From the IMG/VR virus record IMGVR_UViG_3300021962_000767, positions 1 through 21,243 of that record: DNA of 21,243 bases; one strand, 5' to 3'. The DNA is from a virus. Shown piece after piece: positions 2,013 to 13,960 of the stretch. The notes below the pieces were generated by a model, which was not told the origin of the DNA, did no database searches, and saw only the letters and a program-made list of their open reading frames with translations. The position numbers and the translations under genes were made by a program. How positions within the stretch are numbered: the stretch's first letter is position 1; every line of letters begins with the position of its first letter.

Positions 2013-2681
2013 CTATTTTTGAGCATCTTTCAAAACCTCGAAATATTGATACTGTTGACTGGCATTCTCACCTTCAAGTATACTAGTAAATCTTACGTTG
2101 CATACTAATGCAAATTTTTCAGATTTTTCGCAGAAGAAAGGAAAAGTACTATGCTCTGCATGTGCAGGAAAAATAACAATAGTGCCAGTTTTATTATCAA
2201 TAGGGATATAAAGTTTTTCTGTTCTAGCCCAGAACCCACTTTGTGGAAATCTAGGATTATGAAAAACTAATCTACCTGCAAATGGGTGTGGCTCTTCTGG
2301 ATCACGCACCACTTTAGGGTAGTATGTAATAACAAACTGATTTCCTTGATGCGCGTGAGGTATAGACCACTGGCCTCTTCTCTCAACGTTACCGAACATA
2401 TGCATTCTTGGTCTGGTAATATCTTCCGGTCCAAGATTTGGTACTTTACGTAGATAATGCCAAAGATATTGCTCTAAGATATTGAAATACTTCAATAAAG
2501 CTGGGGACTTATAGAGCAGTAAAATATTGTTAGGAATAGCGTGCTTGAAGCCGCTATCGTAGTGTACCATTCGCTCTTTAACGTATTTCTCTGCTAGTAC
2601 AGCTAACTCTTCATTCTCTTGTTCGGTTAGCCTGAGACTATCAACCATTACCTGTGTGGGATAGAAACTATGTAACATCAT
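2013..2681 (-). CDS. 2OG-Fe(II) oxygenase-like protein
   Basis: 222 aa. The C-terminal half has the double-stranded beta-helix pattern of 2-oxoglutarate/Fe(II) oxygenases, closest in my reading to the HxH-type phage family (2OG-FeII_Oxy_5-like). It has QWSIPHAHQGNQFVITYYP with His109 and His111 as likely iron ligands, then GRLVFHNPRF, then GTIVIFPAHAEHSTFPF with distal His177, then EKFALVCNVRF. At the place of the usual 2OG-binding Arg I see Lys189; Arg197 is two strands' spacing later. Such enzymes hydroxylate proteins or small molecules in the cytoplasm. Its start overlaps the radical SAM stop by four bases, so the two are probably made together and may act on one substrate. It could be a divergent or non-catalytic cupin. 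Confidence 0.75.
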   Translation of the reverse strand: MMLHSFYPTQVMVDSLRLTEQENEELAVLAEKYVKERMVHYDSGFKHAIPNNILLLYKSPALLKYFNILEQYLWHYLRKVPNLGPEDITRPRMHMFGNVERRGQWSIPHAHQGNQFVITYYPKVVRDPEEPHPFAGRLVFHNPRFPQSGFWARTEKLYIPIDNKTGTIVIFPAHAEHSTFPFFCEKSEKFALVCNVRFTSILEGENASQQYQYFEVLKDAQK

Positions 2682-4066
2682 AACGGAATAGGTTCCTTTC
2701 GGATTTCAGGTACTACAATTTTAGCGTTTGCAGGCCCCCATAGATCTTCACGTTCATTAGGAAGACTGTAATTATCATCTAATGCTTTGATAGCATAAGG
2801 TAGCGCACCCGTAGCAAATTCAAAAGCAGAAGCAAAAAATGGAATATGATCGCTATAAGCACTGTCACATGAACGCTTGAAGTATTCACCTTGCAAGAAC
2901 ATACATGAGCCTTTACACATTTGTAGTACAGGGCACTTAGAGCATTCATCTCTAAACTTCCAGTGTGTCGCTGTATTTAATTTAATTTTATCAAATTGAG
3001 CCACATGGCCAATTCGATGTGTATGGCCGTTTGGTGCTTTAGAGATGGCAGTTACGTTCTGGCAAGTTAATACGTTACCGTTAAGATCAACAGCAATATT
3101 ATCTTCACGGTCCATGCCACATTTCTGGCCAAGACTATCCCAGCTACGCTTATTGCCCCAGCTATCAATCCATTCACCTACTCTCATTCTAGTAACATTA
3201 AAACGCGAGATAGTACCATCTCTCAACTGATCAAGAGTCATACGTCTAAATGCTAGATGTTCTGCATGTGACTGAAGTGTGTTCTTTAAGCCGCCTTCAT
3301 CATATACATCAATAAAAGCACCTTCGCCAATATTAAACTTAGCTTCTGTACCAAGTAGTTCTACAAAGAAAGCTTGAATCTTCTCTCTATTAAGATTCTC
3401 TCTATGGATCATGCTATTGAAACTGATCTTATTTTTCTTGGAAAGTTTTTCAAACAGTCTCAATAATATCTGTCTTTGATTAGGATCATCAAGCGGGTCA
3501 GGACCTCTAACATTTTGACCTGGACCGTCATGTGAAATACCAACACTAAAGTTGAGATCGTCTATCCAGTCAGTGATTTCATCAGTAATAAGAGAACCAT
3601 TAGTAATAATTAGGAAATCAGCAAGAGGCCACTTTTCACGTAGCATTTCAGCGAGTACTTTTAAATTCTTCCAGTACACGAATGGCTCACCACCCCAAAA
3701 TTCTACTTCCTGAGGCGGATATTTAATCCATGAGTCTAGACCATTAACAAACTTATCCAATAACTTAGTATTTGAATGTTCAATATTAGGTACAAATCTT
3801 TGGCTACAGTACTCACATGAGTAATTACAAGATAATCCTAATTGTATTTTTAAGGTCTTCACTATACCTTTACCTAATGGGGTCTCAGGAGATGTAGGCT
3901 TTGCGGTATGGTAGTTAACTTTATAGAGCGGCTCAATATCAACTAGTCCATTCTCGTCCCATACCTCTGATGTTTCGTTATCATATACGTAATATACGTC
4001 ATCGACACCTACTACATTATCCTGCTCGTCTACAACAGGCTTAGTGCAAGCAATAGCAAACTTCAT
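2678..4066 (-). CDS. Radical SAM/SPASM peptide-maturase-like enzyme
   Basis: 462 aa. Radical SAM enzymes use a [4Fe-4S] cluster to split S-adenosylmethionine and abstract hydrogen from a substrate. The cluster motif is C80-x3-C84-x2-C87 (LSCNYSCEYCSQ), followed by WGGEP at 124-128 and an ISHDGPG segment near 178-184. The C-terminus is a full SPASM domain with seven Cys in the canonical spacing: C316-x13-G330-x4-C335, C375-x2-C378-x5-C384-x3-C388, then C400, ligating auxiliary clusters. SPASM proteins typically modify peptides or proteins (sulfatase maturases, sactipeptide and thioether synthases, PqqE). Residues 1-70 precede the core, are strand-rich and may bind substrate. An AGGA ribosome site lies 6 nt before the ATG. 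The TGA stop overlaps the next start (ATGA). The substrate is unknown; the Cys tract of the Hint protein is a candidate. Confidence 0.93.
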   Translation of the reverse strand: MKFAIACTKPVVDEQDNVVGVDDVYYVYDNETSEVWDENGLVDIEPLYKVNYHTAKPTSPETPLGKGIVKTLKIQLGLSCNYSCEYCSQRFVPNIEHSNTKLLDKFVNGLDSWIKYPPQEVEFWGGEPFVYWKNLKVLAEMLREKWPLADFLIITNGSLITDEITDWIDDLNFSVGISHDGPGQNVRGPDPLDDPNQRQILLRLFEKLSKKNKISFNSMIHRENLNREKIQAFFVELLGTEAKFNIGEGAFIDVYDEGGLKNTLQSHAEHLAFRRMTLDQLRDGTISRFNVTRMRVGEWIDSWGNKRSWDSLGQKCGMDREDNIAVDLNGNVLTCQNVTAISKAPNGHTHRIGHVAQFDKIKLNTATHWKFRDECSKCPVLQMCKGSCMFLQGEYFKRSCDSAYSDHIPFFASAFEFATGALPYAIKALDDNYSLPNEREDLWGPANAKIVVPEIRKEPIPL

Positions 4067-4076
4067 TTTCTATCCT

Positions 4077-4823
4077 TTAAATCACTGTTATCTTATGCTG
4101 TACTGCGTTACTATAAACTTTATCTATACTAAACTTTATTTCAGCTTCGTCACCTGGGTCTAGACCTAGCGCTGTAAAATTAATATTAGCTTTGCCGTCT
4201 TTAATTTGTACAACATTATGTGGTAAATAACCAGCAGTAGTTTTTATATAACTCTTGAAATCGCATTCAGTAAAAACGTCATTGTAATTATAATATTCAT
4301 AATTTAATGTAACGGTTTCGTTAGGTCTAATAGTAGAAGGTCCCCGTACAACAGGTCTAGGAGTATACATCTTTCGGTTAAAGCCTTTAGTGGGTATAAC
4401 ACCTGGAGTAATTACTCTTTCAGCTTCTATATTTGAATGCAGTCCGATTCTCTTATCAACCGTTACAAGCCAAATCGCATCAAGAAAATTTTTCGATTCA
4501 GGTAAGAAAATAAGGTGAATAGGATAACTCTGCTTAAAGATATGAGCTAGTTCTATAATTTTTATTGAGGTAAGTTCTGTAAAGCCTAGTGCGTTGTATC
4601 CTACATCAGGACTAACTATAGCGTTCTCGTTACTATGTGCTTTATAGAAAGGAAAAACGTATCTAGAAAAAGCGTAAAAATCGCTACGTGCTTTAAGTGT
4701 TGCTAGATCTAGTCGTTGACCATTCAATAGGGCATATTCAAGGTGTATTTCTAGGTCAAGCTCGATACCGTGACCGAATATTTTATCACCCTCACCTTCA
4801 CTTTCATAAACCCAAAGTGGCAT
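4077..4823 (-). CDS. Unrecognised protein with Ig-like C-terminal domain
   Basis: 248 aa; I do not recognise the family. Residues 1-45 are acidic (MPLWVYESEGEGDKIF). Residues 46-135 mix helix and strand, with hydrophobic segments such as PIHLIFLPES and DAIWLVTVDK. Residues about 155-248 have the strand spacing of an Ig/fibronectin-like fold (PRPVVRGPSTIRPNETVTLN through GLDPGDEAEIKFSIDKVYSN to HKITVI). There is no signal peptide or membrane segment. An AGG-type ribosome site precedes the start, and the stop is 10 nt before the radical SAM start. It sits between the Cys/Hint protein and two modifying enzymes, so it could be a virion decoration protein, an enzyme substrate, or a partner presenting the substrate. 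None of these can be shown from sequence. Confidence 0.72.
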   Translation of the reverse strand: MPLWVYESEGEGDKIFGHGIELDLEIHLEYALLNGQRLDLATLKARSDFYAFSRYVFPFYKAHSNENAIVSPDVGYNALGFTELTSIKIIELAHIFKQSYPIHLIFLPESKNFLDAIWLVTVDKRIGLHSNIEAERVITPGVIPTKGFNRKMYTPRPVVRGPSTIRPNETVTLNYEYYNYNDVFTECDFKSYIKTTAGYLPHNVVQIKDGKANINFTALGLDPGDEAEIKFSIDKVYSNAVQHKITVI

Positions 4824-4849
4824 AATGTACCTCGCAAATATTAATAATT

Positions 4850-5653
4850 TTATATAGGTTGCCAGGTCTCGTAGTTAAAGTCCTCGTCGTGTGCCCATCC
4901 TGTTACTACTTTATTATCAACGAGGTGAGTATGTGAGCCGTCTAAGATAAGTGTATAAACTGGCATAGAAGAATGAGCAGTAACATCTTTTTCGATACTG
5001 AAAATTTCTTCCTCACCATTTTCAGTGACGAAAGACATTCCAACTTCTAATAGAGAAACAGGCGTGTTTTTAAATCTTTTATTGGTACGCTCGCCTTTAT
5101 TGCCATCACTATCAATAGTTACAACAGTGGTATAATCAGTAGTAGCCTTACTTACACTAAGTGCAGCCCATCCTTTATTAGTCCAATGTCTATGCTCTGG
5201 AGTAGTTTTATGCGTATTATTAATAATGAACAACTCATTATTATTTAACGGGCCTTCATGAAGGGCGATTACTGTATTAATATAACCGAATCCACCATAT
5301 ACTCTATCACCTACAACGATTTCATCGATTCGCTTTAAGCTTTTGTCATGCATTACAACTAAACTATCGCCAGGGAAACAGGTCGTATCTGTTGAACATG
5401 CACAGGCGCAGTCACATGCACAGTCGCATGCGCAGTTACCATCTGAATTATAGAAAGCGTTAAAGGCTATAGAGCCGGAAGAAAAATAAGTAGCTTCATT
5501 ACCAGCCTTGCGGTAACGTCTACCTCTATAATAGTTTAAATTATATAGATTAGCATTATTAGTGCCGTAGTTAAATCCATCTCTGTTAGTATAGTTAACA
5601 AAGTTATCTCTAATATTTGAAAAACTTAACGCTCCTGAAGTAACGGTAGGCAT
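4850..5653 (-). CDS. Virion-type protein with Cys-X-Cys tract and Hint autoprocessing domain
   Basis: 267 aa in three parts. Residues 1-48 (SGALSFSNIRDNF, then NLYNLNYYRGRRYR) resemble a short N-terminal domain of marine phage structural proteins with the pattern I-S-(L/F)-S-x-I-R ... Y-Y-R-G. Residues 74-86 alternate Cys with Ala/Asp, giving seven Cys in 13 residues, followed by STDTT. Residues 92-256 fit a Hint (hedgehog/intein) fold: Cys92 in CFPGDSLVVM as N-terminal nucleophile, a KRIDEIVVGDRVYG strand, a TPEHRHW block-B motif (Thr151, His154), and VYTLILDGSHTHLVDNKVV as the C-terminal strands. The terminal His-Asn of splicing inteins is not evident, so cleavage at Thr91-Cys92 without splicing is the likeliest activity. 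It lies 3 nt after the S74 fibre gene, so it is probably a tail component. Its processed state is inference. Confidence 0.78.
   Translation of the reverse strand: MPTVTSGALSFSNIRDNFVNYTNRDGFNYGTNNANLYNLNYYRGRRYRKAGNEATYFSSGSIAFNAFYNSDGNCACDCACDCACACSTDTTCFPGDSLVVMHDKSLKRIDEIVVGDRVYGGFGYINTVIALHEGPLNNNELFIINNTHKTTPEHRHWTNKGWAALSVSKATTDYTTVVTIDSDGNKGERTNKRFKNTPVSLLEVGMSFVTENGEEEIFSIEKDVTAHSSMPVYTLILDGSHTHLVDNKVVTGWAHDEDFNYETWQPI
5396..5434 (-). other. Alternating Cys-X-Cys tract (seven Cys in 13 residues)
   Basis: Encodes residues 74-86 of the Hint protein, CACDCACDCACAC, five residues before the Hint nucleophile Cys92. Apart from these and Cys92 I count no other Cys in the protein. The tract could coordinate metal, form interchain disulfides, or be the target of the radical SAM enzyme encoded two genes downstream. 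The choice between these is open. Confidence 0.9.
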
Positions 5654-5656
5654 ATC

Positions 5657-8056
5657 TTATAGATCCTTACTCTCTAGTTCAGCAACTTTAGCTCTAAGCT
5701 CGTTTACTTCTGAAGTCAACTCTTTTACTGCTTCTACGATAAGGGCTGTAATCTGCTGATTCATTTTAATCGTCTTATATGTATTGTCAAAAGGAGCAGG
5801 TGCAATAGCTTCTGGAATTACTTCCTCAACTTCTTGAGCTATCAACCCAACATCGGTACCTCTCATGGGTTGATCGGTATCTTCTCTCCAGTCAAATCGT
5901 ACACCGTTTAACTTTAGTAAGTCTTGAAGGGGTGTTTCTGAAACTACTCTTATATTAGTCTTTAGTCTGTTATCTGAAGCATAGGCTGTAATATTGCCCC
6001 AAGATTGCCAGTTGCCACTATCATCTACACGAGATGACCAGCCAAAACTGCTATTTAAAAACCCTATAAAACCATCATTACAGTGAACGTATCTATTACC
6101 TGAATTTGTATCGTTAAATTGTAGTGTGGGTGAAGTACTTTGAATTTGTGGTTGCCCGAACATTACCCCGCTTGTATTATTAAGAGGTGTATATCCTAAT
6201 CTAGCCGCAATATCCGTATAAAAAGAGGCAGCTTGCCCGTTCAAATTAGTGGCATTATTAGCAGTACCATCAATACTAACCCCTGTTAGTGTCTGTAATC
6301 CGCTTGCTCTATTAAGAGCTACACTCGTTGTACCAATAAAAGTAGTGTCTGCTTTCAGTGCATATGAAGCAGCTGCGGTACCGCCCAAGAAAGAAGCATT
6401 ATTAGACGAAATTGTACTAATATAAGTAGCATTTACGTATGTACCTGTAGCATTTGCTACAATACCCGTATTAGCTAAAACATGCAGTCCTGTAGTATTA
6501 GCTACAAGTCCAGTTTTGGCGTCTACAAATGTACCTGAAGTATTTGATACTATACCGTTATTGGCATTAACAGCTAGTGAACCTGTAGTAGTAACAGTTC
6601 CAGTTAAACCTGCACCGCTGCTTACAGAAGTAACTGCTGTAGAGTAACTCTGATCACCTCTAAGGAATGTTGTAGCATCAGCAGTACCTGAACCTAAACG
6701 AGCAGTAGGTACTGTGCCAGTAACTAAGTTAGTAGCATTAGTATAATATGCAGCAGGTTGAGTGGCAAGAAAGGTAGCGTTATTTGCAGCGCCTGAGTAC
6801 GCAGTAGAATTAATCGTAGCTCCATTTATATTAATGGTACTGTTTGAAACTGTTACGTTAGCTGTAGTATTGCCTACTTTAATCTGCGCTGTAGTAATAT
6901 TAACATTTGCACCGACATTAATACCTGTAGCGTTAGCAGTGGTAGCATTTACTGCACCTAATGTACTTAATCCAGTAACATTAAAAGTATTTGAAAATGA
7001 TACACTATTAAGTACCGCAAGTGTGCCGTCTATGTCAAGTGTTGTACTATTTGCAAAAGTATTTACTGAGCTATTGCCGAAAGTGATACTAGCTGTTGTA
7101 ATATTGACATTTGCACCAACATTAATAGCAGTGGTGTTTGCAGTAGCTGCGTTAATATCATTTGCTGTAGTTAATCCAGTAACATTAAGGGTATTGGATA
7201 TTGTAGTTACACCAGCAGCTGATAACGTATTTGCAGCTGTATTTCCTAGTATAGTAACCGTATTTGAGAATCTAGCAGCACCAACTGTATTGGAAGTAGT
7301 ATTAACAGTGAACAAGCTAGATGATTGTAGAACTGTAGAATTAACTACTGTTGTACCGATTGTTACCGAGTTCGATGCGTCTAGATTAGTAACATCAATT
7401 AAAGTAAAATAACCATTCCTAAAAGTAGAAATAGTATTACCGAGGTCGTAAGTATTGGTTACTGGTGGTATTAAATCACCCGCAACACTTAAATCAGATG
7501 TTGTGGTAAAAACACCGTCTACAACTAGATTACCTGTAAAATATCCATTGTTAGACGATACGTAAGTAGAATTAACTATACTATTACCTACTACAATTCT
7601 TGCTACTGATGAATTAGCTACTGCTGCAATTGTGCCAACACCGCTTGTTATAGCAATAGATGTAGAATTAATAGAAGCTCCACCTACAGTAATAGTATTA
7701 CTAGTAACAGTATTGGTTACAGCACTGTTAAATGTAGCAACTCCAGTCACATTTATAGTATTAGATAATACTAAAGCTCCAGAAATAGTCGCTGTATTAC
7801 TAACAGTTAGATTAGACGATATAATTAACGTATCAGTTGAGGATACATTGCCACCTCTTAGTGCGGCTGTAGCAAATAAAGTGTTAGCACCAAACCGACC
7901 AATAATCGTACCGTTACCAGTTGAAGTATTACCTGTAGCTGTGCCATCAACAGTAACAACATGGGTGGTCATGTTATATGCTAGACTATTAGTCTTAGCA
8001 ACCCATGTACCAAACGTATCGGTTGTGATGTCTAAATTTGCAGTAGTAATTGTCAT
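5657..8056 (-). CDS. Tail fibre with C-terminal peptidase S74 chaperone
   Basis: 799 aa. Residues 1-420 are Asn/Thr/Ser-rich beta repeats, including a 68-aa duplication (288-355 and 356-423). Residues 197-222 (PPVTNTYDLGNTISTFRNGY), 447-470 (GTVPTARLGSGTADATTFLR) and 596-625 (NATNLNGQAASFYTDIAARL) are motifs common in phage fibres. Residues about 694-799 form an intramolecular chaperone of auto-processing (peptidase S74): ASDNRLKTNIRV, then VRFDW, VGLIAQEVEEVIPEAI, and a terminal coiled coil (ITALIVEAVKELTSEVNELR). In endosialidase-type fibres this domain trimerises the fibre and cuts itself off between Ser and Asp. The equivalent bond here is Ser694-Asp695, giving a 694-aa mature fibre and a 105-aa released chaperone. 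It probably binds the host surface. Its start overlaps the stop of the coiled-coil gene. Confidence 0.9.
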   Translation of the reverse strand: MTITTANLDITTDTFGTWVAKTNSLAYNMTTHVVTVDGTATGNTSTGNGTIIGRFGANTLFATAALRGGNVSSTDTLIISSNLTVSNTATISGALVLSNTINVTGVATFNSAVTNTVTSNTITVGGASINSTSIAITSGVGTIAAVANSSVARIVVGNSIVNSTYVSSNNGYFTGNLVVDGVFTTTSDLSVAGDLIPPVTNTYDLGNTISTFRNGYFTLIDVTNLDASNSVTIGTTVVNSTVLQSSSLFTVNTTSNTVGAARFSNTVTILGNTAANTLSAAGVTTISNTLNVTGLTTANDINAATANTTAINVGANVNITTASITFGNSSVNTFANSTTLDIDGTLAVLNSVSFSNTFNVTGLSTLGAVNATTANATGINVGANVNITTAQIKVGNTTANVTVSNSTININGATINSTAYSGAANNATFLATQPAAYYTNATNLVTGTVPTARLGSGTADATTFLRGDQSYSTAVTSVSSGAGLTGTVTTTGSLAVNANNGIVSNTSGTFVDAKTGLVANTTGLHVLANTGIVANATGTYVNATYISTISSNNASFLGGTAAASYALKADTTFIGTTSVALNRASGLQTLTGVSIDGTANNATNLNGQAASFYTDIAARLGYTPLNNTSGVMFGQPQIQSTSPTLQFNDTNSGNRYVHCNDGFIGFLNSSFGWSSRVDDSGNWQSWGNITAYASDNRLKTNIRVVSETPLQDLLKLNGVRFDWREDTDQPMRGTDVGLIAQEVEEVIPEAIAPAPFDNTYKTIKMNQQITALIVEAVKELTSEVNELRAKVAELESKDL
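6800..7195 (-). repeat. 68-aa tandem duplication in the S74 fibre shaft
   Basis: Two adjacent units (protein residues 288-355 and 356-423) both start NT(L/F)NVTGL and share INVGANVNITTA at residues 311-321 and 379-389. DNA identity is high over the shared core near 7094-7126 and 6890-6922, then decays, so the duplication is old or under diversification. Weaker related starts occur upstream in the same protein (NTINVTG near residue 99). Confidence 0.75.
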
Positions 8057-8265
8057 TATTTGCTCTCTAGAACCCTACTGATTAAAATCTTTATCTCATT
8101 AATGTCGTTTTTAAGATTACTAAATTCGCCGATCATATCGTTTAATATACGCTCTCTGTCACGTCTTGCCTTATAAGCGGCAAGACCGTTATTATCAATA
8201 TTTAGTAGGGCACTCGAACTAGTATCTCTAACTAAATCGTTGCGGTCTTGAACTTTAACGTGCAT
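8056..8265 (-). CDS. Small conserved coiled-coil structural protein (69 aa)
   Basis: The sequence begins MHVKVQDRNDLVRDTSSSAL, a motif I recognise from small proteins next to the DUF4815-type gene in marine T4-like phages. The rest is charged and helical (AAYKARRDRERILNDM, then LKNDINEIKILISRVLESK) with heptad-like Leu/Ile spacing over about residues 40-69, so an oligomeric coiled coil is likely. I chose ATG at 8265, one base after the upstream stop (TAAAATG). A TTG at 8283 would add six residues but overlaps the upstream gene and is less family-like. The stop overlaps the next ATG by one base (TAATG), coupling it to the tail fibre. A fibre-attachment or fibre-assembly role is possible from context, but unproven. 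Confidence 0.75.
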   Translation of the reverse strand: MHVKVQDRNDLVRDTSSSALLNIDNNGLAAYKARRDRERILNDMIGEFSNLKNDINEIKILISRVLESK

Positions 8266-8266
8266 T

Positions 8267-11200
8267 TTAGATCTGCAATGCAATAGCGCGCATATCGGCT
8301 ATTCTTGGAATTAAATGAGTTCCAGCAGTTGATGTCATTACAATCTTAATTGCAAATACTTTAAAGTCATCAACGGGTGATCCTGCAAGAGTATAGTATC
8401 TAATAATATTAGAATTATCAGAGTTTCTAGCAGCTGTCTTACCAGTACTAATATTAGCAGCAGTGTTAGCAGGCAACCTATAACGATATTCATTATATTC
8501 TTTATAGTTAGTCTTACTACCAACTACACTGGCTGGTGTTACCTGTTCCATTAACGACCAATATTTGTCACTAAATGACTCTGAATCTTCTGCACCTTGT
8601 ACTTTAACATATACGTAGATTTCAGTACCTGATGGCTTGTTTGCTGTTAGATATACTTCAATATCTTCAGCGTCTTGACCTTCAGCTAATGTAACTCTTT
8701 TACTAACATACTTACTAGTAATTACAGTATTACCACCAGGGAATGTTTCATTATTAGCAATTACTGTGTTACCAGTAGAGATCTCATTCTTAATTACAAG
8801 AACGCTCTTCTTAATATCATTAATAATAGGCGATATTTTTGCATTAGTAGATGAGATGGTAGCTAGTAGTTCAAGAGAGTTATTTCCGCCCATCCCGCTA
8901 AATTCATTTGATCTTGAGAGTACTCTGCGCTCAAAATCTACAAATTCCATTTCAGTATCGTTTTGAACTGGTGTACTTAGATTTTCTCTAGTAAAGGACG
9001 ATAGCGGGGTACCGTTTAATGTTAGGTTAATAAATGTACCAGGAGGTCTTGCAATAGACAACTGAGGTACTGCTACACTATATGTAACGTTATCAACACT
9101 AACTAGGTTAGCTCTAGCCCCACTAACATTACCGATAATAAGAGTTTGAGTATTACCAAAAGTAAAGTTAGCAGTACTATTTGCAGTACTGTTAGCAATA
9201 TACAAATCACCATTTACTGGATCTACGAACTCAACAGTGCCTGTCAATCCACCATTAGCATAAAGCTTACCGATACTAGCGTTATTATCAGTAAAGGATA
9301 GATTTGCACCAACTCTAATATTTGTTGTGTTGGGTAACGCGGTAATAGTTCTAACATCAGTATTTGTGCCAGTGTTGGAAGAGATATAGATTACATCGCC
9401 AACTGAGAAAGCTGACTGTGCTGTAGTAGTTCCAATTATTATTGAGTTAGATAGTGAGCTATTAACCGTTGCACCGGAAGCTACTGTTACGACTGCATTA
9501 GATACGTAGACTGTTTCTCCTGTTAGGAAAGTACTCTTAAAGTTATTAACACTTAGATACTCTGTTTCTGAGTTTTTATAAGTGATTGAACCAGAGAGTG
9601 AAGAGAAGTTAGCACGGTAAATAACACACTTAATATCTTCTTTAGTATATGCAATCCAGACTCTATTTGTAGAGGATGTAAATAGATCGCCCATTGGATT
9701 GTTTTCATAGATAGGGGCATTAGTGGTAACGTCTGTACCACCAATCTGAGCTACCCAGATTTTTGTATCTGTGTTATTACCTTGCGGTAATACTACAAAG
9801 CAATATTGCTTCTGATTTTCAAGGTATAGAGGAGTATCAAATGTTACAGTTGTAGCTAGTGAAGCATCGCTACTTGTATTAATACTAGCAGATGTAATAA
9901 CTTTTCTGCCACCCGGAACAATACGAGGAGTGGGGTACCCTGTATCTTCATCTACTTCACGTAGCTGAACCTCAACACCTAGGGTCGCATGTTTCTGCTG
10001 GAAGAACAGATCAATTTTAGTTACAATAATACCTGGTAGTCCCGTTGCTGAATCATCTACCAAGAAAGACTGAGCGATAGGATCATACCAACCTACAATG
10101 TTGTTAGTAGTTTCGGTAGAAACGGATGTGATAACTGATTGAGTTTCTTGAGTTACAGTCTGAGTAATTTGAGGCTGTGTAACGTTAACTCCAGCGTTAG
10201 CTTTAGCAATAATAATATTACTACCAGTATAAGATCCCGTAGCGATGGTTGAAATTGTTTCAGCCTCTGCAACGAGATTTTGCACATCAACTAGCTTAAA
10301 TATGCGTTCACCAGTCTTAAAGGTATTTTCAGGTATGTAGAAGATACCATATACTGTTCCGGTAGAATCGGTAGTAAGAGCACCGCCGAAAGATCCAATA
10401 TCAACAAGTGATGAGTTAGATGCTTTACAGTTAGATGCTACTGATTTTTCATCGAAGAACGGGTAAACAATAGTACTAGGCTTTAAACCTCTTGCAGTAA
10501 ATGCAACACGTCTTGAGCGTAGATATGGTTGTACCGATACATCCTGTACAATTTCACCGAACGAAAATTGCTGGTTATATGCACTAAAGTTAGTATTAAT
10601 AACGTCACGTATTTGATTAGTCGTTTCTGTAACAGTAGTAGTAGCTTCTTGAGTAATGGGTCTACCTAGACCTGGTACAAAATTAGCAAACGAGGTTTCA
10701 GCAACAGTAGCGCCTAGAACTGTATTGGATTTAACATCAACGCTTGTAGTATTCCAATTACCGTACTGAGTGCCGAAGAACCCACCGTTTGCTAGAGCAA
10801 GAAAAGGAGCTGCAAGATCAATGTTTACTACAACGTCAGGATTATACTTAATATCTGGAACATGGTCACCATCAGGCGATAAAGCTACACTTCCTTTCCA
10901 AACATATACAAGGGCTTCGGCGCAGTTTCTTACCTTACTGGCAAATGGCTGTGTAATGAAAGGAGTATGTGAATAATTTAGAGTTGTACTTGTACCGGTT
11001 TTAACAGTAGAAGTTAAAGCCTTATCCTGTAGAGGGATATATGCATTTACAAATTTAGGTCTTAGAATACTACCCTTTGTATCAATAGCGGCTTTGAACT
11101 CAGGGCTACCAGTATCTGCAATTTTAAAATCGTTGAACGAGTCTACATATAATCCGTTCTTAAATCTATTATTGCCGCTAGAATCGGTAATTAGTAACTT

Positions 11201-13960
11201 ATCAGTATCTAGCTCTAGAGTGGATAATAATGTATAATATTCTAGCGTGTTAATACGCTGGTCTAACACGCCTACATCACGCATAGTGTATCTACGCTGT
11301 TGAAGTAGAGTATGAGTTACTAGATAATCATATCTATTGTATGTTCTTGATTCAGCCTGTGTTAATGATGGGTATGGTGGTATACTTACTACACCCAGTG
11401 TCATGGCACCTTCTTGGTCTTTCGGTGTAGTTGGATAAAGACCAGCAATACCTTCTACGATATTAACCTTACCACTCGGAGACATTGTAATCTTGTCTCT
11501 TCTTCCAAGGTAATAATTAATATCCAATGAAGCAGTAGTATCAGGTGCAGGTACTGAGATTAGAGATGCGTTAAACGTATTAGCAGCACCATGCCCATCA
11601 GTAGGGCTCACAGTAGCGGTAGAATTAGAAGTAGCATATGCAGCTGTATTAGACATAACGGGTCTAAAATCAATTGCATCTCTTAGAGTTATCGCACCTT
11701 CTCCTCTTTGAAACGCATAAATTGGTATCTCAGCGGTCTTAATAGTGGATAGGGTATTAGCAGTAGAAGAATCATCAGTTGAATAAGAATCTACTGTAAA
11801 GAAACCATTACCCGTACTGTTATTAGCTTGAAAGCAGTCTAGTACTACAAGTAGGTATTGATTAGCTGTAACAGTATGACCTGTACCTGGTTTAATCTTA
11901 AGATATGCGTGACCGTAATATGCGTCTCTTTGACCTGTATCTAATGTAAAGTAATCTACATTATTAGTCTCTGTATTACTTAGAGTAGACCCTTGATAAA
12001 CGGCTTTAATTTTAAATACGTCAGATAATCCAAGTGGCCAGGGGCCGACAGTATTACCAGGATTACTCGTGTTGGCTAGAATACCAACGTGTACATCTCT
12101 CTTAACGATTTTTGAGAGTACCGGAAATGACTGGCGTGTAACGTTAAACGATATATCTGCATTAAATGATACTCCTAGGCCTGTATCAATAGTAGCAGAA
12201 TTAGAGGTTGTAGTAATAGAACCAGTAGTTACTATGTTAATAGGTCTACCAATATTTACCCCGGTATTTGCACTGGTGGGAATAATTGTAAACTCGCTCT
12301 TTTGATTTTGAGTGAGAGAACCAACATCAGCAAAAACAGTATTAGATCCTACGGGAGCGATACCAGTTGCTTGACCGTTAGTAAAAGTAACCGATACTGT
12401 CTGTCTTGTAGTATAGGATCTATCGGATGTATTTGCTAGTGCTGCACGTCCAATTGGAAATACTAACGAGTCTAAATTACTATCGTTTAGTACTGCTTCG
12501 CTACTAGCATTAAGTATAACGTCGCCAAAAGCATTAGCGCTAGAATTACTGGATGCAATGCATTTAACGTCTTTAAAATTATAGGTGTTAGCCATATTAA
12601 TATCATACAAGTAGATATTATATGTGGCGTTAGCAAGACCGGGATTACCTGAACTATATGCTACTGAGCGTACATAAGCTGTACCAACTTCTGATCCAGG
12701 ATATGCCCTATTTGAGTACTGACTATTTGCAATTGCATTTGCAGCTGCACTTCTTAGTGACACTCTTGTAAAGTTGGGGAAGCCGAAATTACCAACGAAA
12801 TTATTAACAGTTACATAATTACCATACCCTGTACCTACCGTTTGATCGTCGATACTTGATACATCAGTGCCCTTTCTAATATTTGTACTTTTCTTATTTA
12901 CAAACTCTACACGATAGCCCTGAACGTACCCTACACCTTTATCAATTGATAACGTGTGATATGTTGTATTAGAAGTATTTGCAGAAATGGACAATTCAAA
13001 CGGGTCAATAATATAATGACCGCTTTCTTCATATGTACGTTTAGCTAGCTGTCTTCCTAACTGAGCGTACTGAGGGTCTGTACGGACTATGGTAGGTGCA
13101 CCAGCTTCAAAATCTACGATCGAGAAAAAACTATCTGTATTTGAAGTTGATGATGTTACACTAGTATTATCTGTTGTACGTACGACTAGATTAGCGGTTA
13201 ACTTTAAGCGATTAGCACCGGGGGCATTATAATTAGGGGCGCCTAATGCGTTGTCAAGTAAAGTCGCATCACTATCAGCAGTGACTACAATTTCGTTTGT
13301 CTTAAATCCAACAGATACACCGTTGGGCTGGTTATTGTATTTTGTTACGATAACGCTCTGTGGATCAACGCGAACGAAGAAGCCTTTCTGGAATATTACA
13401 CCCTCGGAAATACCAACGGAGTATCCTACACCTACTGCATTAACAGTTGAATTAGCTACAGTAACAGTACCAAATAAACTGTTAGCGGTCGTTCTAATCT
13501 GTATAAGCTGATTAGGGTCATATTTCTTTTGAGGTGAACTATTTGAATATGTGCCTGAGTTAAGATACTTAATGTATAGTGTATTGAGGTCTGGATTAGC
13601 TGATTCAAAGCCAGCTACTGCATCGACGATAATAGCTTCTAGTGATGTATTCGAGGATAGTACCTTCTTGCCAATAAAATCAGAAAGGGAAGTAATAGCA
13701 GAACCATTACTGTAGTTATCCAAAATTTTAATATAATCAAGCTTATTATCGAAATAAACGGAGCATCCTTCTATAATAGAACCGTCGACAAAAATATGCT
13801 TACCAAATTTTTCGACTTGATCTTGTAGAATAGATTGTAGTTGTGTTAGCTCGCGAGCTTGCACAGCGGTAGAGGGACGAAATAAAATTCTATAGAAATT
13901 ATTATTAGCGTCAAAGTCATCAAAATATGGAGGTGTGTTAAAATTAGTTTCTAAAGACAT
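8267..13960 (-). CDS. Giant DUF4815-type virion structural protein
   Basis: 1897 aa, the largest protein here. Its N-terminus (FNTPPYFDDFDANNNFYRIL, FRPSTAVQARELTQLQSILQ, then QVEKFGKHIF) is the signature of DUF4815 structural proteins of marine T4-like phages. Further family-like blocks are DKGVGYVQGYRVEF near 340, ITLRDAIDFRP near 760, and a helical stretch near 890-960 (MRDVGVLDQRINTLEYYTLL). A jelly-roll-like region near 1290-1490 contains GWYDPIAQSFLVDD and KIDLFFQQKHATLGVEVQLR. Residues about 1490-1660 are low-complexity beta modules. The C-terminus has an FKVFAIKIVMTSTAGTHLIP block and ends MRAIALQI. It occupies the map position where T4 has gp9/gp10, so it may be the peripheral baseplate piece joining wedge to fibres. 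That role is inference; the family's exact function is unknown to me. Confidence 0.8.
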   Translation of the reverse strand: MSLETNFNTPPYFDDFDANNNFYRILFRPSTAVQARELTQLQSILQDQVEKFGKHIFVDGSIIEGCSVYFDNKLDYIKILDNYSNGSAITSLSDFIGKKVLSSNTSLEAIIVDAVAGFESANPDLNTLYIKYLNSGTYSNSSPQKKYDPNQLIQIRTTANSLFGTVTVANSTVNAVGVGYSVGISEGVIFQKGFFVRVDPQSVIVTKYNNQPNGVSVGFKTNEIVVTADSDATLLDNALGAPNYNAPGANRLKLTANLVVRTTDNTSVTSSTSNTDSFFSIVDFEAGAPTIVRTDPQYAQLGRQLAKRTYEESGHYIIDPFELSISANTSNTTYHTLSIDKGVGYVQGYRVEFVNKKSTNIRKGTDVSSIDDQTVGTGYGNYVTVNNFVGNFGFPNFTRVSLRSAAANAIANSQYSNRAYPGSEVGTAYVRSVAYSSGNPGLANATYNIYLYDINMANTYNFKDVKCIASSNSSANAFGDVILNASSEAVLNDSNLDSLVFPIGRAALANTSDRSYTTRQTVSVTFTNGQATGIAPVGSNTVFADVGSLTQNQKSEFTIIPTSANTGVNIGRPINIVTTGSITTTSNSATIDTGLGVSFNADISFNVTRQSFPVLSKIVKRDVHVGILANTSNPGNTVGPWPLGLSDVFKIKAVYQGSTLSNTETNNVDYFTLDTGQRDAYYGHAYLKIKPGTGHTVTANQYLLVVLDCFQANNSTGNGFFTVDSYSTDDSSTANTLSTIKTAEIPIYAFQRGEGAITLRDAIDFRPVMSNTAAYATSNSTATVSPTDGHGAANTFNASLISVPAPDTTASLDINYYLGRRDKITMSPSGKVNIVEGIAGLYPTTPKDQEGAMTLGVVSIPPYPSLTQAESRTYNRYDYLVTHTLLQQRRYTMRDVGVLDQRINTLEYYTLLSTLELDTDKLLITDSSGNNRFKNGLYVDSFNDFKIADTGSPEFKAAIDTKGSILRPKFVNAYIPLQDKALTSTVKTGTSTTLNYSHTPFITQPFASKVRNCAEALVYVWKGSVALSPDGDHVPDIKYNPDVVVNIDLAAPFLALANGGFFGTQYGNWNTTSVDVKSNTVLGATVAETSFANFVPGLGRPITQEATTTVTETTNQIRDVINTNFSAYNQQFSFGEIVQDVSVQPYLRSRRVAFTARGLKPSTIVYPFFDEKSVASNCKASNSSLVDIGSFGGALTTDSTGTVYGIFYIPENTFKTGERIFKLVDVQNLVAEAETISTIATGSYTGSNIIIAKANAGVNVTQPQITQTVTQETQSVITSVSTETTNNIVGWYDPIAQSFLVDDSATGLPGIIVTKIDLFFQQKHATLGVEVQLREVDEDTGYPTPRIVPGGRKVITSASINTSSDASLATTVTFDTPLYLENQKQYCFVVLPQGNNTDTKIWVAQIGGTDVTTNAPIYENNPMGDLFTSSTNRVWIAYTKEDIKCVIYRANFSSLSGSITYKNSETEYLSVNNFKSTFLTGETVYVSNAVVTVASGATVNSSLSNSIIIGTTTAQSAFSVGDVIYISSNTGTNTDVRTITALPNTTNIRVGANLSFTDNNASIGKLYANGGLTGTVEFVDPVNGDLYIANSTANSTANFTFGNTQTLIIGNVSGARANLVSVDNVTYSVAVPQLSIARPPGTFINLTLNGTPLSSFTRENLSTPVQNDTEMEFVDFERRVLSRSNEFSGMGGNNSLELLATISSTNAKISPIINDIKKSVLVIKNEISTGNTVIANNETFPGGNTVITSKYVSKRVTLAEGQDAEDIEVYLTANKPSGTEIYVYVKVQGAEDSESFSDKYWSLMEQVTPASVVGSKTNYKEYNEYRYRLPANTAANISTGKTAARNSDNSNIIRYYTLAGSPVDDFKVFAIKIVMTSTAGTHLIPRIADMRAIALQI

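Follow-up and report, generated by a model that had tools for sequence, protein, structure and literature searches.

The window, a 21,243-nucleotide (nt) virus record (IMGVR_UViG_3300021962_000767), carries on its minus strand a T4-like baseplate and tail-fiber operon. In it, a fiber gene with an S74 chaperone domain is followed, in order, by genes for a tail protein that joins a cysteine (Cys) tract to a C-terminal Hint domain, an immunoglobulin (Ig)-like protein, a radical S-adenosylmethionine (SAM)/SPASM enzyme, and a 2-oxoglutarate (2OG)-Fe(II) oxygenase-like protein. A first-pass annotation of the sequence had read the last four (positions 2013 to 5653) as a tightly spaced cassette whose enzymes modify a tail protein, most simply at its Cys tract. 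All four open reading frames (ORFs) are indeed found on the minus strand, and the spacing is as claimed: 10 nt separate the Ig-like and radical SAM genes, and the radical SAM and 2OG-like genes share a 4-nt ATGA overlap. The gap from the S74 fiber to the Hint gene is 3 nt and that from the Hint gene to the Ig-like gene is 26 nt. Analysis of related loci shows that what tracks the radical SAM enzyme is a CxCxC tract located C-terminally in a tail-fiber protein, not the Hint domain.

The window enzyme matches the Radical_SAM (PF04055, 3e-10), SPASM (TIGR04085, 8.7e-9), and phrog_1802 (1.6e-63) profiles and has the full set of ten motif cysteines, three in CX3CX2C and seven in the canonical SPASM pattern, as belongs to a radical SAM/SPASM enzyme. 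Across 13 diverse relatives, nine of these cysteines are invariant and C400 is nearly so. Its nearest NCBIfam families are the peptide or protein maturases QhpD, PapB, CcpM, and AnSME, all far under their curated cutoffs, and its nearest named solved relatives in the PDB are AnSME and CteB. Membership was rejected for the PapB/ranthipeptide maturases (NF047865, 55.2 bits versus a 340-bit cutoff), for QhpD (TIGR03906, 55.1 bits versus 453 bits, still the top NCBIfam match), and for the anaerobic sulfatase maturases (TIGR03942, 50.4 bits versus 349 bits).

Scanning viral contigs with the radical SAM alignment revealed >500 viral relatives, and we viewed the neighborhoods of 80 that were kept. 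At most of these loci, a same-strand neighbor contains a CxCxC tract, mostly with no Hint domain, and the tract simply ends the fiber protein. When the enzymes were clustered at 70% identity, a tract gene was found nearby on the same strand in 42 of 50 testable clusters; at 55% identity, the count was 15 of 17. Tract ORFs of at least 60 amino acids (aa) number 123 on the radical SAM strand versus 16 on the opposite strand. The exceptions are mostly distant cellular relatives, in Variovorax/Ramlibacter and Bacteriovoracaceae, together with two loci, L020 and L290; the latter carries a broken tract, NCNCDRNCGC. Some tract loci have two to four different radical SAM genes (L114, positions 3051 to 10408; L144; L145; L180; L108).

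The association also holds in reverse. In a search of viral contigs for the DNA pattern of NCNC[ND]C[ND]C that made no use of the enzyme, a radical SAM gene was present at 54 of the 66 loci where the pattern lies in an in-frame tract ORF versus 2 of the 14 where it does not (Fisher P = 2.9e-6). Where at least 4 kb of downstream sequence was available, the enzyme accompanied 35 of 36 tract ORFs, and the sole exception, the 61-aa ORF of L142, looks spurious. A co-occurrence test set beforehand asked whether Hint proteins with the tract occur without the enzyme. Those with a tract are always accompanied by it (L087, L088/L089, L091, L098, and L099), and those without a tract have no radical SAM gene in the available sequence (L090, a short contig; L092 to L097; and L100). 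The idea of the Hint domain as an essential partner was therefore rejected, since only about 16 of 142 tract proteins carry one and tract-less Hint proteins lack the enzyme. Co-occurrence in unrelated phages strongly supports the central proposal of the first-pass annotation, that a radical SAM/SPASM enzyme modifies a tail protein's Cys tract, and we consider such action of the enzyme on the tract very likely.

T4-like contigs carry the pairing, and so do the isolated Achromobacter siphophages JWF and 2-1, a short distance past their Tal protein. Many uncultivated phages of the Tal type have it as well, arranged Tal, fiber, tract fiber, Ig-like, 2OG, and radical SAM, and it also occurs in Limnohabitans, Roseobacteraceae, and Burkholderia prophages. 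This distribution bears on the possibility that the enzymes are cargo, that is, auxiliary or host-takeover genes that settle in a hypervariable tail-fiber region with no link to the fiber. PHROGs does class the 2OG family as moron/auxiliary, and unrelated genes gather in pelagimyophage host-recognition regions (PMC7029224). Such cargo would explain neither the 35 of 36 tract ORFs with an enzyme nor the same pairing, in conserved order, in unrelated phage types; already disfavored, this explanation appears very improbable.

To characterize the tract, we compiled 142 nonredundant tract proteins across all loci. The residue between cysteines is Asn (334), Asp (92), or Ala (81) at 90% of 561 positions, and Asn precedes the first tract Cys in 122 of the 142 proteins. 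The tract lies ≤12 residues from the C terminus in 107 proteins. In the few proteins with a Hint domain, it follows the tract; in one case (L137), an S74 chaperone domain stands right after the tract instead (PF13884, 1.4e-4), and most proteins have a bare C terminus. Two lineages carry the same fiber with and without Hint: T4-like (L017 with, L016 without) and Tal-type (JWF with, L025 without). In both, Hint begins just past the tract. Because the same fiber occurs in both forms, Hint and its substitutes most likely expose the tract as the fiber C terminus. At two loci (L113, positions 4636 to 5631; L120, positions 41 to 934), the tract is followed by a domain of ∼170 aa that starts SKIxCxKLxxLGMM, perhaps another removable C-terminal domain; that of L113 has no Pfam match. 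Elsewhere, a CxC tract lies inside a glycine-rich adhesin-like protein (L027, positions 6274 to 6762), and L020 has a glycine-rich protein at its radical SAM locus (positions 11371 to 12954).

In the window protein, the tract reads N73-CACDCACDCACAC-86 and ends five residues ahead of the Hint residue Cys92. The Hint domain called in the first-pass annotation is weak in sequence (PF01079, 2.7e-5, under the family cutoff) and clear in fold: the predicted model matches a BIL domain (Z 18.2; root mean square deviation 2.1 over 138 residues), as well as intein domains and hedgehog (Z 14.1), and residue 92 superposes on the catalytic first residue of inteins. The predicted local distance difference test score (pLDDT) is about 80 to 94 across most of residues 90 to 250, and the underlying alignment was built without proteins from annotated phage records. 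Single-sequence searches of phage records and viral contigs with the Hint protein gave no matches; a five-member alignment was required to find its relatives. Sequence and alignment place both acyl-shift elements, the N-terminal Cys92 and T151PEH154 (TxxH). The C-terminal His-Asn and +1 nucleophile of inteins are absent, the aligned intein end reading TGWAH at about residue 252 to 254. Since TxxH is present and the C-terminal His-Asn is not, the domain is expected to cleave at its N terminus and not to splice. The phage domain thus shares its fold, catalytic Cys, and TxxH with Hint, BIL, and hedgehog domains but differs from them in directly following a Cys tract on a tail fiber and in being swapped for S74 or nothing in relatives.

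Table 1. Features of the tail-fiber cassette in the window
Feature	Positions	Strand	Basis or remark
Upstream tail fiber with S74 chaperone (context)	5657..8056	-	PF13884, 7.4e-15
Tail protein (267 aa) joining Cys tract to C-terminal Hint; predicted substrate	4850..5653	-	
Cys tract NCACDCACDCACAC, residues 73-86, predicted modification site	5396..5437	-	Sequence reading and tract family statistics
Hint domain from Cys92	4853..5380	-	TxxH at 151-154, without C-terminal His-Asn; N-terminal self-cleavage expected
Ig-like partner, 248 aa	4077..4823	-	C-terminal Big-1/intimin-like domain; family in 22/35 cassettes
Radical SAM/SPASM putative maturase, 462 aa, core member	2678..4066	-	PF04055, TIGR04085, phrog_1802, invariant cysteines
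2OG-Fe(II) oxygenase-like protein, 222 aa, optional cassette member	2013..2681	-	phrog_81, 4.9e-19

To rank the other cassette genes (Table 1), we counted them in 35 nonredundant cassettes with flanks; these counts come from profile matches and are lower bounds. The Ig-like family, which had no role in the first-pass proposal, is the most frequent further partner (22 of 35); roughly one cassette in three lacks it. An alternative partner, cl9, occurs in 3 of 35, never together with the Ig-like protein, and profile comparison found no relationship between the two. The 2OG-like gene was detected in 14 of 35, so a fixed four-gene pathway is not supported. Given these counts, the core of the system is the radical SAM enzyme plus the tract fiber, the Ig-like protein is the usual partner, and the 2OG-like and ATP-grasp proteins are optional. 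The finding is real and larger than the first-pass annotation held, with Hint and 2OG less central.

Structure comparison of the Ig-like protein model (pLDDT 82.9) confirmed an Ig-like fold for residues ∼150 to 248, with a Z score of 10.9 to intimin (1f00) and scores as high as 12.2 to GH2 Ig domains. For residues 1 to 150, the structure search showed no solved fold, which is not evidence for a new one; full-length structural relatives exist among uncultured phages. The 2OG assignment stands on its PHROGs profile, which is clear, and falls short in Pfam, where the match is below the cutoff (PF13759, 1.6e-4). Searching PDB sequences with the alignment of the 2OG family returned no matches. In the family of the window protein, H109-x-H111, H174, H177, and R197 are invariant. 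A RimK-type ATP-grasp gene joins the L006 cassette (PF08443, 3.6e-11), and a similar gene is found in L008; in both, the insertion (L006, positions 2820 to 4062; L008, positions 11440 to 12670) includes a small function-unknown protein. The L008 contig, which is T4-like, also has TctC-type (positions 8990 to 9979; PF03401, 5.1e-49) and DctP-type (positions 12667 to 13683; PF03480, 4.2e-25) solute-binding proteins inside its tail cassette. Near the radical SAM gene of L023 (positions 438 to 1466) lies a protein with an Asn-synthase/PP-loop-like SGGLDS motif and no Pfam match.

We propose a RiPP (ribosomally synthesized and posttranslationally modified peptide)-like, phage-encoded maturation of the tail-fiber tip. 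The radical SAM/SPASM enzyme would modify the Cys-x-Cys tract (x = Asn, Asp, or Ala) that lies C-terminally in a small tail-fiber protein, the most likely chemistry being a row of thioethers that join Cys sulfur to an Asn or Asp beta carbon. The Ig-like protein, or cl9, most likely would hold the substrate or sit on the fiber, and the 2OG-like protein, where present, would hydroxylate Asn or Asp further. Some phages, a minority, have a self-cleaving Hint or S74 domain after the tract; it would remove itself and leave the modified tract as the fiber C terminus. Such a tip would be rigid and resistant and would serve to contact the host surface. As the best explanation of the whole, we consider it likely that the tract is modified by the enzyme, thioethers between Cys and Asn or Asp being the plausible product, and that Hint then removes itself. 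We lean slightly toward the broader view of a widespread, previously undescribed class of virion maturation, in which phages of several morphotypes crosslink the Cys-Asn/Asp tract into a polycyclic tip at the C terminus of the receptor-contacting tail fiber; a RiPP-type radical SAM enzyme would make this tip, and self-cleaving domains that can replace one another would uncover it.

The thioether proposal draws on spacing and on analogy. Because Cys and Asn/Asp alternate, the distance from Cys to acceptor can only be odd, and [N/D]-x-x-C fits; in the window, the candidate pairs are N73-C76, D77-C80, and D81-C84. Asn or Asp stands at -3 for 313 of 415 tract cysteines, much of which alternation alone yields, making this an argument from spacing rather than a demonstration. 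By analogy, the tract provides the acceptor residues used by known radical SAM/SPASM thioether enzymes, which form the Cys-Asn link in NxxcA and six Cys-Asp links in freyrasin (PMC8326336). A thioether product has, in our estimate, about an even chance. Alternatively, the enzyme could act on the tract by other chemistry, converting Cys to formylglycine as AnSME does, for example to give reactive aldehydes that could bind host amines, or introducing epimerizations or C-C crosslinks. Profile and PDB comparisons both place AnSME among the nearest relatives, and its core and SPASM cysteines can be aligned with those of the window enzyme over most of the chain (E 8.6e-16). However, no sulfatase or sulfatase-type target motif was seen, the tract is unlike an AnSME substrate, and its Asn/Asp bias, the acceptor signature of known thioether systems, has no role in formylglycine formation. 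We therefore regard other chemistry as unlikely.

The systems closest to the proposed one differ from it in several respects. As in the ranthipeptides (PapB/freyrasin, NxxcA, and SCIFF/CteB), a radical SAM/SPASM enzyme adjoins a Cys- and Asp/Asn-rich substrate, but the presumed phage substrate is the C-terminal part of a virion fiber protein with no apparent leader, its strict alternation excludes even Cys-to-Asp spacing, and the NCBIfam scores are far too low. No gene for a PqqD-like RiPP recognition element was identified in the window or the phage cassettes. With respect to RiPPs generally, a conserved core-like tract adjoins the enzyme but is fused to a fiber, without a classical leader. 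In the QhpD/QhpC/QhpG system, which matures quinohemoprotein amine dehydrogenase, QhpD makes thioethers from Cys to Asp/Glu in a structural subunit, QhpG then oxygenates the same subunit, and processing follows (PMC7876137). That subunit belongs to a periplasmic enzyme, the oxygenase is a flavoprotein, and a protease cuts an N-terminal leader, whereas the phage system would combine a fiber, a 2OG-like oxygenase, and a self-cleaving C-terminal domain.

Cellular relatives point to a link with RiPPs. At L298 (positions 8312 to 8929), which groups with Bacteriovoracaceae in the radical SAM tree, the enzyme adjoins a PqqD-like protein (PF05402, 4.2e-4, under the cutoff) and a 62-aa peptide ending GACACACGGPCY, probably a RiPP cluster. 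Because of this arrangement with a short Cys peptide, a RiPP origin or offshoot of the phage system is likely; the tree, which has long branches, settles neither the direction nor whether the cellular RiPP-like relatives are ancestral. The Variovorax/Ramlibacter relatives have a 65- to 71-aa ORF directly upstream of the enzyme that may be a precursor peptide (L279, positions 6567 to 6782; L287, positions 6727 to 6924).

Several points weigh against a radical SAM-modified fiber tip. L020 has the enzyme and no tract was found there, and distant cellular relatives of the enzyme show no phage fiber. The loci are related, and the counts overstate their independence, for which the clustering at 70% and 55% identity is a partial remedy. 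The 2OG-like gene is missing in most cassettes, and in the window's family its activity is uncertain because the first metal motif is HxH instead of HxD/E. The case is built from genomics and predicted structure. These show the gene association, where the tract lies, the Hint fold with its N-terminal cleavage residues intact, and the same fiber in both forms, whereas the modification itself, its chemistry, its timing relative to Hint cleavage, and its role are inferred. Moreover, CxC tracts could bind metal or form disulfides unmodified. The tract might accordingly stay unmodified, holding a metal or Fe-S cluster or locking the tip through disulfides, while the enzyme modifies the Ig-like protein or another fiber region; the locus without a tract and the genomic rather than chemical nature of the evidence would both suit this. 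Yet it is the tract, and no other gene, that tracks the enzyme in both directions, and a third or so of the cassettes have no Ig-like protein to modify. We judge an unmodified tract quite improbable and favor modification of the tract by the radical SAM enzyme.

Literature searches, which did not cover bioRxiv preprints, returned no description of this system, and we know of no case of a phage making its tail fiber by radical chemistry. Radical SAM cassettes in pelagimyophage host-recognition clusters were noticed earlier, without explanation in the available part of that study (PMC7029224). They share with our loci a place in the variable tail-fiber region of T4-like phages; the same part mentions no Cys tract, substrate, or mechanism, and the text does not contain the word "cysteine."

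Many phages thus appear to carry their own radical SAM enzyme beside a tail-fiber gene to modify a Cys-Asn/Asp tract (NCNCDC...) at the fiber tip, an idea that is directly testable on the isolated phage JWF. If true, it would represent new chemistry for receptor-binding tips, could explain the presence of radical SAM genes in phage host-recognition regions, and would provide natural enzymes that may staple NCNC-type tags at a protein C terminus.

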